From Cryptosporangium minutisporangium (GTDB taxonomy: Bacteria > Actinomycetota > Actinomycetes > Mycobacteriales > Cryptosporangiaceae), in contig NZ_BAAAYN010000022.1 of the NCBI RefSeq assembly GCF_039536245.1, forward strand, positions 1-64,000: a stretch of 64,000 nucleotides of DNA, given 5' to 3'. The translations under genes were made by a program, and so were the position numbers. This document shows, in pieces, positions 5,575 through 58,929 of this stretch. Below the pieces are notes generated by a model that saw only the letters and a program-made list of their open reading frames with translations, was not told the DNA's origin and searched no databases. Each line of letters begins with the position of its first letter. Position 1 is the first letter of the stretch.

Positions 5575-6740
5575 GGTTGCCTCCTGGGGGTCGTGCCGCC
5601 GGTCGTGCGGCGGGTCTTCAACGCGCGGGTGTAGGGGTCGACGCCGCGGGCGAGCTCCTCGCGGGTGTACGGGCGGACCGAGCGGCCGGTGGGGTAGGCG
5701 ACACCGACCCGGCCGGGGGCGGCGCCGGCAGGCCGGGGCAGCGACCGGGCGGACCCGCTGCGGCCAGAACGCATCGGCCAGGTGTTGATCTGGATCCGGG
5801 TCCCGCCGCCACCGGACGGCCGGCCGGTCCCGGGAATGCGACGCAGGGAGCGGGTCAGCTGCTGAACGAGGACGACGCGCGCGATCGTGGCGAGCCCGGA
5901 CGGTTTGGGTTGGGTCACGTAGCGGCGCATCAGCGCGGGAATCTTGATGACCGCCCACAGCAGGCACACCACGATGAGCAGGTTCATCACCGCGCCGGGC
6001 TCCCCGGGCAGCCCCAGCATGGGCAGGTTCGCGGCCGGGTCGAGGAAGATCGTCAGTGTGGTGTGCAGCGCGACCGCCTGCAGGACGACGGTGCCCAGCG
6101 CACCGAGCAAGGTCCGCCACCACAGCTTTGCCGCGCCCTCGGTCTGCGGTGTGCCGTGCAGCGCGAGCGCGATCGGCGCGATTCCGACGGCGACGACCAG
6201 CACGCCGAGCCGGATGATCCACTGCACGATCAGGACACCGACGAGAACCGCGATCAGCAGGCCGATCAGCACGAGCAGGATCCCGGCGTCGCTGACGGGT
6301 TTCCCGGTCCCCAGCGACGCCATCGTCAGGTCGTGCAGCTGCTGCATCGACTTCGGTGAGGTGATGCTCTGGCTGGTCAGCGCGGCGGTCAGCGCATTGG
6401 CCAACTGGATCGCCGTCGAGCAGATCGGTTGCGAGAAGTTCGCCGCGATCAGGCCGATGATCAGCCGGGGAACCAGCTCACCGGGACCGACTCGGGACTG
6501 CAGGGTGTCGCGCCCCATGATCTGTAGCGCCGTCCACAGGAACGCCAGCACGTAGCAGACATTCACTACATCCAGGCACGTGTCGGCCAGCGCAACGACC
6601 TGCGGCATTTCAGTCACGTTGGGGCTGACGAACACCGTGGCTGACAGCAACCCCCACAGCGTGTCCAGCGCGCTCGTGGCGGCCGCAGCCAACGCCACCA
6701 GAACGGCGTCGAGGAGGTTGCCGGTGACCCAGTCGCCCAC
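5571..6740 (-). CDS. TrbL/VirB6-like polytopic transfer protein
   Basis: 389 residues from GTG 6740, just after the stop of the pilin-like gene; an upstream in-frame start at 6791 would overlap that gene. At least six hydrophobic segments span residues of about 5 to 270, as in TrbL/VirB6 channel components of the inner membrane. The last 100 residues are Gly/Pro/Arg-rich and end in the YTRE motif repeated in the next gene. It probably forms the membrane channel with PrgI and VirB4. Assignment rests on topology, length and operon position rather than a sharp motif. Confidence 0.75.
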   Translation of the reverse strand: MGDWVTGNLLDAVLVALAAAATSALDTLWGLLSATVFVSPNVTEMPQVVALADTCLDVVNVCYVLAFLWTALQIMGRDTLQSRVGPGELVPRLIIGLIAANFSQPICSTAIQLANALTAALTSQSITSPKSMQQLHDLTMASLGTGKPVSDAGILLVLIGLLIAVLVGVLIVQWIIRLGVLVVAVGIAPIALALHGTPQTEGAAKLWWRTLLGALGTVVLQAVALHTTLTIFLDPAANLPMLGLPGEPGAVMNLLIVVCLLWAVIKIPALMRRYVTQPKPSGLATIARVVLVQQLTRSLRRIPGTGRPSGGGGTRIQINTWPMRSGRSGSARSLPRPAGAAPGRVGVAYPTGRSVRPYTREELARGVDPYTRALKTRRTTGGTTPRRQP

Positions 6741-57286: not shown

Positions 57287-57730
57287 GTGGCGCACGGCCG
57301 CGAGCGATTCGGCGCAGGGCTGCACCTCATCGACACGTCCGCGCACGCACGAGTGGCCCACCCGGCGGTGCGCGACGTCATCGCTGGGCTGGTCATCGAC
57401 CGCGCGGCGGCGGCGTGCGTCACCGTCGACCTGGGAGCGGGCTACTCCGGGCGCGACGCGGAGCACGTCGGGCGCATTCGTTGCCGTCGACGCGAGCTGT
57501 ACGTCACCCTGCGGATCAGCGAGGCGATCGCCGATCGGGCGCGCGACGTCCAAAGCCGGATGGCGTCGCGCGGTCACCATCGGGCGGCTGGCGTCTTGGA
57601 CCTGCTCACGGCGGCGGTGGCCGAGCACCACGGGGCCGTAGTTCTCCACTACGACGCCGATTTCGAGCACATCGCGGACACCACCGGACAACCCCATCGC
57701 CGGGTCGCGCCGCGCGGCAGCGTGGACTGA
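57287..57730 (+). CDS. Lone VapC-like PIN protein, probably degenerate
   Basis: 147 residues from GTG 57287. LHLIDTSAHARVAHP, LDLLTAAVAEHHGAVVLHYDADFEHIADTTGQP and the final VAPRGSVD match actinobacterial VapC toxins closely. The usual N-terminus is extended, and the region that normally holds the conserved glutamate (VELELLYSAR in relatives) reads VTVDLGAGYSGR here, so one catalytic acid seems lost. No VapB-like gene precedes it; the 92-bp gap upstream has no antitoxin. It may be a relic. Confidence 0.65.
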   Translation: MAHGRERFGAGLHLIDTSAHARVAHPAVRDVIAGLVIDRAAAACVTVDLGAGYSGRDAEHVGRIRCRRRELYVTLRISEAIADRARDVQSRMASRGHHRAAGVLDLLTAAVAEHHGAVVLHYDADFEHIADTTGQPHRRVAPRGSVD

Positions 57731-57792
57731 GACGTGGCGGCCCCGGGGGCTTTACCCGTCCCCCGGGGCCTGAACGTGGAGAACGACCACGT

Positions 57793-57865
57793 TGGAGTCG
57801 GCGGGAATCGAACCCGCAACTTCATCCTCTGAAGGGATGCGCGCTACCAGTTGCGCTACAACTCG
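57793..57865 (-). tRNA. 73-nt tRNA with anticodon UCA (reads UGA)
   Basis: On the minus strand a full cloverleaf folds. The acceptor CGAGTTG/CGACTCC pairs except for the first pair (C:C). The D-stem is GCGC/GCGC, the anticodon stem CATCC/GGATG with loop CTTCAGA (U33 present, anticodon TCA at 57830-57832), the variable loop 5 nt, and the T-arm GCGGG-TTCGATT-CCCGC. The discriminator is A and CCA is not encoded. It has no long variable arm, so it is not a tRNA-Sec; it would be an opal-reading tRNA. The mismatched first pair leaves some doubt about activity. Confidence 0.65.
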
Positions 57866-57914
57866 CGCCTCGCGCTGACGACCTCCGCCACTGTCGGCGC
57901 CGGTCAGCCTGATT

Positions 57915-57986
57915 CGCTGCGCTCTGCCGTTGAGCCATTCCGCCGTGGTGGAGGCGGAACCGGGATTCGAACCCGGAACCTCAGCG
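57915..57986 (-). tRNA. Circularly permuted tRNA-like locus, 3' half before 5' half, UCA anticodon
   Basis: On the minus strand the 3' half comes first (57986-57949): CGCTG anticodon stem, AGGTT, T-arm CCGGG-TTCGAAT-CCCGG, acceptor TTCCGCC, T, CCA. Four bases later comes the 5' half (57944-57915): acceptor GGCGGAA, TG, D-arm GCTC-AACGGCA-GAGC, G, anticodon stem CAGCG. Acceptor strands match 7/7 and anticodon stems 5/5. The loop positions flanking each half both place TCA at 34-36. Either it is a permuted tRNA or the joint of a lost tandem tRNA pair. U33 is missing in both readings, so function is uncertain. Confidence 0.55.
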
Positions 57987-58155
57987 AGTGAGCCGACGCG
58001 CGTCGTGCCGGACGGCCCGAGGCGATATTCAATTTGGCGCAATAGCTTCAACATGAGGGCGGGCATTGATCTGCCCTGGTCAGCCTGAATCTCAGTCTCA
58101 GCTTCTCCGGCTTTCGCGGCCGGTACCCCGCGCGCCAGCGGGGAGTCTCGTCCGG

Positions 58156-58929
58156 CTAATCCCGCAGGAGGTAGCCGGTCAGGGCGGCGCCGAGCGGATT
58201 GTCGACGACCTCCTCCAGGTTGGCCTGCTCGCGCGCCATCCGCACGGCCGCGATGAGCTTGTCGACCCGGTCGAGCAGCGTCGCCTTCCGGCCGGCCGGG
58301 ATCGCGCCGGACAGCTTCACGGTCGTCCAGAAGCCGACGACGACGTCCTCGTTGTACGAGGTGACCTGCGCCGGGTGCTTCTCGGTGGCCTCGTAGAGCA
58401 CCTGCACGCGCGGGACCTTCGCCGTGCGGGTGGTCTCCCGCGGCTCCGACCGGTACGCGCCGGCGTCCGCGTCGCGCGTCCAGACCTCGGCGATGTCGAG
58501 GACCGGGAGCTTGGCGATGACGCCACGCCAGTCGACGAGCTCCTTCTCCAGCGTCATCAGGAACGTGACCGGCACCTGGGCGGCGATGGTCTCACCGTCG
58601 ACGACGATGTCACCGCGGGCCCGCGCGTTCGTCTCGTCCTTGCTGGCCGTGACGTCGAACAGGCGCGAAAGCGTGCGGGACGCCTCGTCGAGGAGCTCCT
58701 CGACGTGGACCTGAACCCGGGTGCGCTCGTCCGGCAGCCGTACGCCCTCGTCGTCGATCGGCCGGTAGGTCCGGATCAGACCGGTGAGGGCCGCCTCCAG
58801 CGAACCGCGCTGCATCTGCTGGTGGATCGCCGACTGCGCGTCCTTGGCGCGTGCCTTGACGCTCTTCTCGATGGCGACGAGCTGGTTGAGCAGCGTCGTC
58901 CGGTTGCGGACCTGCGTGGTGGTAGTCAT
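58156..58929 (-). CDS. Conserved-type protein of unknown function
   Basis: 257 residues from ATG 58929. I do not recognise the family with certainty. The first half is helical and charged (LLNQLVAIEKSVKARAKDAQ, VHVEELLDEASRTLSRLF). The second half is strand-rich (VPRVQVLYEATEKHPAQV, VVVGFWTTVKLSGAIPAGRK). No membrane helix, signal peptide or catalytic motif is evident. It lies 32 bp downstream of the PucR gene on the same strand and could share its transcript. Confidence 0.55.
   Translation of the reverse strand: MTTTTQVRNRTTLLNQLVAIEKSVKARAKDAQSAIHQQMQRGSLEAALTGLIRTYRPIDDEGVRLPDERTRVQVHVEELLDEASRTLSRLFDVTASKDETNARARGDIVVDGETIAAQVPVTFLMTLEKELVDWRGVIAKLPVLDIAEVWTRDADAGAYRSEPRETTRTAKVPRVQVLYEATEKHPAQVTSYNEDVVVGFWTTVKLSGAIPAGRKATLLDRVDKLIAAVRMAREQANLEEVVDNPLGAALTGYLLRD

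Follow-up and report, generated by a model that had tools for sequence, protein, structure and literature searches.

Introduction

In the two-piece, circularly permuted tmRNA (RF04321), the T-arm and acceptor strand come first and a long helix replaces the anticodon arm, while GOLLD is a large structured RNA of tRNA arrays. The title of a work cited in PMC9569102 reports GOLLD in the tRNA arrays of Mycobacterium. The bacterial RNAs known to imitate the shape of tRNA are few, tmRNA and YrlA being the examples named in PMC8394870, and both PMC11472068 and PMC8394870 describe the bacterial Y RNA as superposable on tRNA by circular permutation. In algae and archaea, permuted tRNA genes are tied, in PMC3978253, to a bulge-helix-bulge motif and to a splicing endonuclease.

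The locus described here lies in a stretch of 64,000 nucleotides of Cryptosporangium minutisporangium (NCBI RefSeq assembly GCF_039536245.1, contig NZ_BAAAYN010000022.1, positions 1 to 64,000; hereafter, the window), for which a permuted tRNA with a UCA anticodon had been proposed from the sequence. The element is one domain of a structured RNA of about 400 nt placed just downstream of the gene for a DUF7873 protein, and not a decoding tRNA gene. Its layout and linkage leave hardly any doubt that this domain has the shape of a circularly permuted tRNA and belongs to a structured RNA linked to DUF7873; in actinobacteria as well as in phages, compensatory change has preserved it. The best overall explanation, which we regard as highly probable, is a Ro60-independent tRNA-mimic RNA working with DUF7873.

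The permuted domain and its RNA region

The permuted cloverleaf (57915-57986, minus strand; the downstream domain, elt2, of the family) was delimited from the sequence, from covariation in an alignment of 45 sequences and from the minimum free energy (MFE) fold of 165 nt. The order given in the original prediction, with the 3' half (T-arm, acceptor strand and CCA) followed by 4 nt and then by the 5' half (acceptor strand and D-arm), is exact on the minus strand from 57986 to 57915. Read in this direction, the 5' strand of the closing stem, CGCTG (57986-57982), is followed by AGGTT, the T-arm CCGGG-TTCGAAT-CCCGG (57976-57960), the acceptor 3' strand TTCCGCC (57959-57953), TCCA (57952-57949) and CCAC (57948-57945), so that the 8-nt linker between the acceptor strands reads TCCACCAC. 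The acceptor 5' strand GGCGGAA (57944-57938) comes next, then TG, the D-arm GCTC-AACGGCA-GAGC (57935-57921), a G and the 3' strand of the closing stem, CAGCG (57919-57915), which pairs with CGCTG. The complementarity claimed for the acceptor strands (7/7) and for the anticodon-stem strands (5/5) was confirmed, as was the presence of TCA on both sides of the break, in AATCA after CAGCG and in TCACT before CGCTG. Beneath the closing stem, an internal loop (CTCACT, 57992-57987, and AATCAGGCTGA, 57914-57904) is followed by an outer stem, in which CGTCGG (57998-57993) pairs with CCGGCG (57903-57898). The 3' strand of the internal loop is resembled by ATCAGACTGACC in a locus of a different genus (L048). 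As regards the outer stem, its outermost pair is C-G in the window and in L003 and T-A in L004, both loci of the same genus as the window, and its third pair is T-G in the window and C-G in the other two. When the 165-nt stretch is folded alone, CGCCTCG (58018..58024) and CGAGGCG (57866..57872), also on the minus strand, form an outermost stem in the MFE structure.

Most relatives carry a further permuted domain upstream (elt1), whose site corresponds to 58030..58104 (minus strand) of the window. There, stem-like sequence shared with the relatives is found together with a short hairpin (AGGGC, 58077-58073, with GCCCT, 58060-58056). In the window's genus this hairpin replaces elt1, and a tRNA-like of ordinary order comes after elt2. 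The latter (57793..57865, minus strand), at the 3' end of the same RNA region, is the second UCA tRNA that had been noticed about 50 nt away; it was found 49 nt downstream, with a C-C mismatch at 1-72 and without an encoded CCA. It is detected by ARAGORN and by Rfam (tRNA, 64.3 bits), and both programs call only this tRNA (57865-57793) in the region, leaving the permuted element uncalled. Its counterpart in L004 has a 6-nt anticodon loop and no UCA, and because of this loop and of the C-C pair a UGA-reading role for 57793-57865 is doubtful. By eye, the viral contigs L169 and L171 show an arrangement like that of the window's genus, and in L168 two permuted domains are followed by a UCA tRNA-like (6630-6704) with mismatches inside its acceptor stem. 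A gene with a vWA-like start comes after the UCA tRNA-like of L168.

A GC-rich hairpin (57739..57770, minus strand), which the window shares with the other two loci of its genus, stands at the end of the region; a consensus terminator scan of the window, which requires a T run, found none. A PIN-domain gene (57287-57730) converges on the RNA region. In L076, of a different genus, a PIN gene is also located downstream of the RNA, and it is absent from the other nine downstream genes scanned.

Linkage to DUF7873

The conserved partner gene (58156..58929, minus strand) encodes a DUF7873 protein of 257 aa (Pfam PF25283, E 2.7e-96). The defining feature of the proposed family, a permuted domain on the same strand as DUF7873 and downstream of it, is true of the window. 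The element is kept in L003 and L004 (DNA identity of 92% and 82%), and in a third relative, G001, which lacks DUF7873, the sole match is weak, spans 39 nt and falls outside the element. The search for the same permuted order in related genomes, suggested in the original prediction, returned it from distant relatives with strong covariation. In fact, a locus of a different genus (L048) and one of a different family (L036) keep the permuted layout with entirely different acceptor stems, each 7/7 paired, and among 111 loci (the best 80 of 552 included) this layout is combined with 69 distinct acceptor pairs. DUF7873 was found in 7 of 121 relatives, and in all seven at least one permuted domain adjoins the gene.

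For wider counts, DUF7873 loci were taken from GTDB genomes (80, the best 80 of 552 relatives) and from viruses (16, all those returned), and searched with a scanner written for the permuted layout, in which the window element scores 33-34. At a loose threshold, 94 of these 96 loci (genome part, best 80 of 552) had at least one downstream domain, and at the strict threshold (31) 89 of the 96 did. In the strict-threshold controls, domains were found in 0/95 upstream stretches, 0/96 on the reverse strand, 1/96 inside the gene and 1/93 far downstream, and none of the 288 dinucleotide shuffles, made from the relatives' downstream stretches, reached 31; chance does not account for the window element. 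Over the 111 loci (best 80 of 552 included), at least one domain was present in 108, 107 and 102, and at least two in 81, 67 and 37, at thresholds of 27.5 (loose), 30 and 31 (strict), respectively; five loci show three hits at the count of at least two domains, some of them surely by chance. The window, counted here as L072 (with the L003 and L004 loci as L073 and L074), has only one domain by the scanner, two being common and not universal. Three loci without a domain by the scanner (L164, L171 and L177) were counted as misses, and in L164 and L171 domains are apparently present by eye, with features beyond the scanner's limits. Since L032 and L056, YrlA-like RNAs beside TROVE genes, pass the scanner too, this tool cannot tell the DUF7873-linked kind from the YrlA-like one.

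Moreover, a covariance model of elt2 (R1) was scanned on 296 genomes of the class. In 24 of the 25 genomes with DUF7873 it scored 62.7 bits or more, every match adjoining the gene, and in the other 271 it did not go beyond 56.4 bits; the 25th genome, G301, which holds only pieces of the gene, gave no R1 match beside DUF7873. Since R1 contains sequences from the same species groups, its scores lean high and this result is support, not proof. Six loci inspected from the next tier of matches were a tandem tRNA-Asn (L231), two loci with a pair of YrlA-like RNAs each, at about 1.2 kb from TROVE (L232 and L235), a YrlA-like RNA about 2.7 kb from a TROVE match (L233, 1501-1607, contig C174 of G132), which sits inside an array of 15 tRNA genes, and single YrlA-like candidates (L230 and L234). 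The candidate at L230 (1501-1618) belongs to a genome, G392, without a TROVE match, and L234 (G194) is similar. Listing the ORFs of L230, L232 and L233 added nothing.

DUF7873 was also found in 73 phage records and 4 plasmids. Among the nine named phages examined out of these 73 records, the gene lies inside a tRNA array or borders on one in four (Phendrix, Mimi, NiceHouse and Rhizobium TM39) and is outside a large tRNA array in five. Two annotated tRNAs are near it in Fryberger and Vibrio D505, and none is annotated within 2.5 kb in Pam2, the Microcoleus phage and Klebsiella MJ359. Downstream of DUF7873, eight of the nine have one or more permuted domains, the Microcoleus phage being the one without. 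Of the 16 viral contigs, L162, L164, L167, L168 and L170 have 5 to 26 tRNA or tmRNA genes around DUF7873, and the remaining ones 0 to 3.

Covariation and folding

Two alignments were built from regions with a linker of at most 14 nt, picked for spread: one of 45 of the 100 such elt2 regions (A4; 108 in total), omitting eight single-domain rows taken as elt1, and one of 36 of the 61 such elt1 regions (A6; 80 in total). In elt2, 90.8% of cells were paired versus 68.6% when shuffled and 37-47% when slid, with 181 double changes versus 46 shuffled. Each of the 7 acceptor pairs and each of the 5 T-stem pairs shows double changes, and none of them has a broken cell. In elt1, 91.9% of cells were paired versus 78.3% shuffled and 45-57% slid, with 84 double changes versus 21 shuffled. 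These regions had been cut by the scanner, which favours paired sequences, and therefore 40 whole RNAs (of the 111 loci, picked for spread) were aligned by position alone. From this scanner-free alignment RNAalifold recovered both cloverleafs, each inside an enclosing helix, with 92.7% paired versus 39-46% slid, a figure for which the structure itself came from this alignment. Pairing is poorest in the closing ('anticodon') stem, at 67-70% of cells on the alignments, and this stem extends into a long irregular helix both in the alignment consensus and in the isolated fold.

Folded in isolation, the 165-nt stretch of the window adopts as MFE the permuted cloverleaf on its long stem (-80.1 kcal/mol), with a z of only -2.0, 4 of 200 shuffles folding as well. 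When a longer part of the window was folded, the acceptor and T-stem pairs exceeded a probability of 0.9, apart from the first acceptor pair (0.73) and the first T-stem pair (0.70). Elsewhere the probabilities were 0.70 for the D-stem, 0.43 for the closing stem, 0.05 for the outer stem and 0.06-0.12 for the outermost stem 58018..58024/57866..57872. As to the loops, GG is kept in the D-loop (elt1 80/80, elt2 105/107) and TTCNA in the T-loop (79/80 and 106/107), and the linker carries C at the second and third-from-last positions in 105 and 101 of 107 elt2 and in 67 and 78 of 80 elt1 domains. Such a kept elbow and C-bearing linker fit a tRNA mimic closed by a short loop.

The DUF7873 protein and the neighbouring genes

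The AlphaFold model of DUF7873 (pLDDT 89.2, pTM 0.76) gave no match at E 1e-3 or better in Foldseek against the PDB and a viral library, a lack which is no proof of a new fold, and the best VIA-align result (Z 6.2) was to TolC-type long helices and uninformative. By sequence, the PDB returned four matches (best E 0.099), none of them convincing, PADLOC and NCBIfam none, and PHROGs two at E 0.14 and 0.21. In the protein tree, the DUF7873 of the window clusters with those of L165 and L168 (support 0.915). Both DUF7873 by name and an RNA of this kind were absent from the literature searched, and other papers may exist.

An all-against-all comparison of the flanking ORFs of the 96 loci produced no group of more than 16 loci. 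Seven distinct groups span at least 12 loci; six of them start -46 to +81 nt from the DUF7873 end, a position within the RNA region, and the remaining one, of 12 loci, consists of a short ORF located about 880 nt downstream. Furthermore, ten genes from each side, downstream and upstream, out of 17 per side selected by a simple rule, had no Pfam family in common.

Alternative explanations

The region might be a structured 3' UTR of the DUF7873 mRNA, serving as a stability or termination element and never becoming a free RNA, which we consider improbable. It would suit this explanation that the first domain lies about 70-220 nt past the stop codon in most loci, and that a sigma-70-like promoter scan of the window found none. 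Nevertheless, the domains of L168 are about 650 and 800 nt from the gene, in L167 the single detected domain is at about 500 nt, and two tRNA mimics with a kept elbow exceed what a stabilising hairpin needs.

That the element belongs to the YrlA/Y RNA family proper and is bound by Ro60 is decidedly unlikely, in spite of the same strand order and of the presence in it of the permuted tRNA-like domain typical of YrlA (T-arm, acceptor hairpin and D-arm). A permissive Rfam scan matches 58006-57891 to full-length YrlA with 32.7 bits (E 2.4e-5), L003 and L004 reach 30.3 and 35.2 bits at the element, and 7 of 10 related loci give 31-38 bits, while the cut-off is 69 and no Rfam family reached its own cut-off over the permuted domains of the 10 loci. 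The junction of two complete tRNAs in L039 also attains 33.6 bits, and YrlA-like RNAs beside TROVE are under 69 as well (36-44 bits in four, 28.8 in G039); consequently, the YrlA score alone separates nothing, and the Rfam model seems too narrow for these actinobacteria. In the window's genome (G000), TROVE (Ro60) is on a different contig from the element, with a separate YrlA-like RNA within about 1 kb of the match (L037, L066), a situation which counts against this alternative. The same proximity of a YrlA-like RNA to a TROVE match, within about 1 kb, is seen in G002, G024, G035 and G039. The YrlA-like RNA of G000 beside TROVE (L037, 1501-1615, contig C17) scores 36.3 bits, under the Rfam cut-off. 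Among the 296 genomes of the class, DUF7873 is present in 25, TROVE in 37 and both in 17. This overlap speaks for the YrlA assignment and may reflect phylogeny; against it, 8 of the 25 DUF7873 genomes, one being G301, are without TROVE. Moreover, G003, a 100% complete genome in a single contig, contains the element and gave no match to TROVE, and DUF7873 shows no profile similarity to the genome's TROVE protein (probability 0.2%). The filing of the element as Rfam YrlA was rejected on score, neighbourhood and G003; a functional link of the DUF7873 RNA to Ro60 is possible.

The original prediction of a functional permuted tRNA gene, whose precursor would yield a UCA tRNA after ligation at the anticodon loop and cleavage between CCA and +1, stands as to the permutation, which is real and conserved by compensatory change, and falls as to the tRNA gene. 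The matching halves (7/7 and 5/5), the TCCA followed by 4 nt and the retention of TCA on both sides in L073 and L074 favour it, and among elt1 domains TCA follows the 5' half in 23/80, even if on both sides in 0/80. Nevertheless, the family conserves no anticodon, U33 or CCA: TCA on both sides is found in only 3 of 107 elt2 domains, all from the window's genus, with 31 different triplets at the anticodon place among the 107, U33 in 40/107 and NCCA at the linker start in 20/108 (38/80 in elt1). In the cloverleaf of the window, position 33 would be A and not U and position 37 would be C, a point unmentioned in the prediction, and in the alignment consensus the break runs on into long helices. 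Neither the bulge-helix-bulge motif nor the splicing endonuclease is known from bacteria, which also counts against a permuted tRNA gene. Altogether, such a gene is very hard to sustain.

A scar left where two tandem tRNAs were joined by deletion (the other option originally raised) or a decaying pseudogene has practically no standing, since, even if tandem identical tRNAs give the same pattern (as the tandem tRNA-Asn of L231 does), the two alignments covary, with double changes in all 7 acceptor pairs of elt2, the place beside DUF7873 is steady in several genera and in phages, and ARAGORN found no complete tRNA at the element's place in the related loci scanned; we regard it as refuted.

Proposed role of the RNA

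Under the preferred explanation, that of a tRNA-mimic RNA working with DUF7873, the region would be transcribed as a free RNA, and DUF7873 would bind it, presumably through the long stem beneath each cloverleaf. By analogy with Ro60 and YrlA, the formation of a ribonucleoprotein by DUF7873 and the RNA is reasonably likely, the acidic character of the protein (pI 5.2-6.3, 9 checked) and the failure to recognise a known fold in it having been counted against this. The elbow of T-loop and D-loop, together with the acceptor-like hairpin, may imitate tRNA and so dock a tRNA-recognising enzyme, the candidates being modification enzymes, nucleases such as PNPase, and nucleases that attack tRNA and would be decoyed in this way; the choice of any one docking target is tentative. 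Most members would offer two mimic domains, and the window's genus, where the upstream one is missing, an ordinary-order tRNA-like after the remaining one instead. Phages may benefit from the RNA, and its home in phage tRNA arrays suggests a role in handling or protecting tRNA. In its broadest form, the proposal is that DUF7873 and the double tRNA-mimic RNA constitute a new two-component ribonucleoprotein of actinobacteria and phage tRNA arrays, independent of Ro60, which protects or redirects tRNA metabolism against tRNA-attacking defence, a view for which the chances are about even.

If true, a widespread family would be added to the tRNA mimics, often with two domains per RNA and with a different protein partner, and DUF7873, a protein of no known function, would gain a candidate RNA partner. 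The RNA is easy to miss, because tRNA finders are blind to permuted tRNAs and the stretch can stay unannotated; in the Gordonia phage Phendrix, 507 nt of the RNA region were left unannotated. The finding also directs attention to the advantage that tRNA mimics may bring to phages that have them among their tRNA genes.

Comparison with known systems

Like YrlA (RF02553), the RNA of the Ro60/Rsr ribonucleoprotein, which is bound by Ro60 and serves to tether PNPase, the element presents T-arm, acceptor-like hairpin and D-arm, in this order, on a long stem. Unlike YrlA, it adjoins DUF7873 and not Ro60, and occurs without Ro60; its region often has two domains, its score is far under the YrlA cut-off, and its linker is often NCCA-like, with C conserved near both ends. 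With the permuted tRNA genes of algae and archaea it shares a 3' half with CCA placed before a complementary 5' half, and it differs from them in that its family lacks a conserved anticodon, U33 and CCA and is not decoding.

The two-piece tmRNA (RF04321) resembles the element in having the T-arm and acceptor strand before the acceptor and D-arm strand. The differences are that the element has a complete 4-bp D-stem in place of a reduced D-arm and C-G as acceptor pair 3-70 in place of G3-U70, and Rfam gave no permuted tmRNA match at it, only a 17-nt tmRNA match of 12.7 bits (cut-off 47), the sole permuted tmRNA match being at 57757-57817 with 21.1 bits (cut-off 47). As regards GOLLD, the DUF7873-linked RNA is likewise long, structured and located in or near tRNA arrays; it is set apart by the result that its permuted domains, in the 10 loci scanned, brought no Rfam family to the cut-off. 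The layout is of a known kind, that of the bacterial tRNA mimics, and the partner, the double form and the distribution appear to be new.
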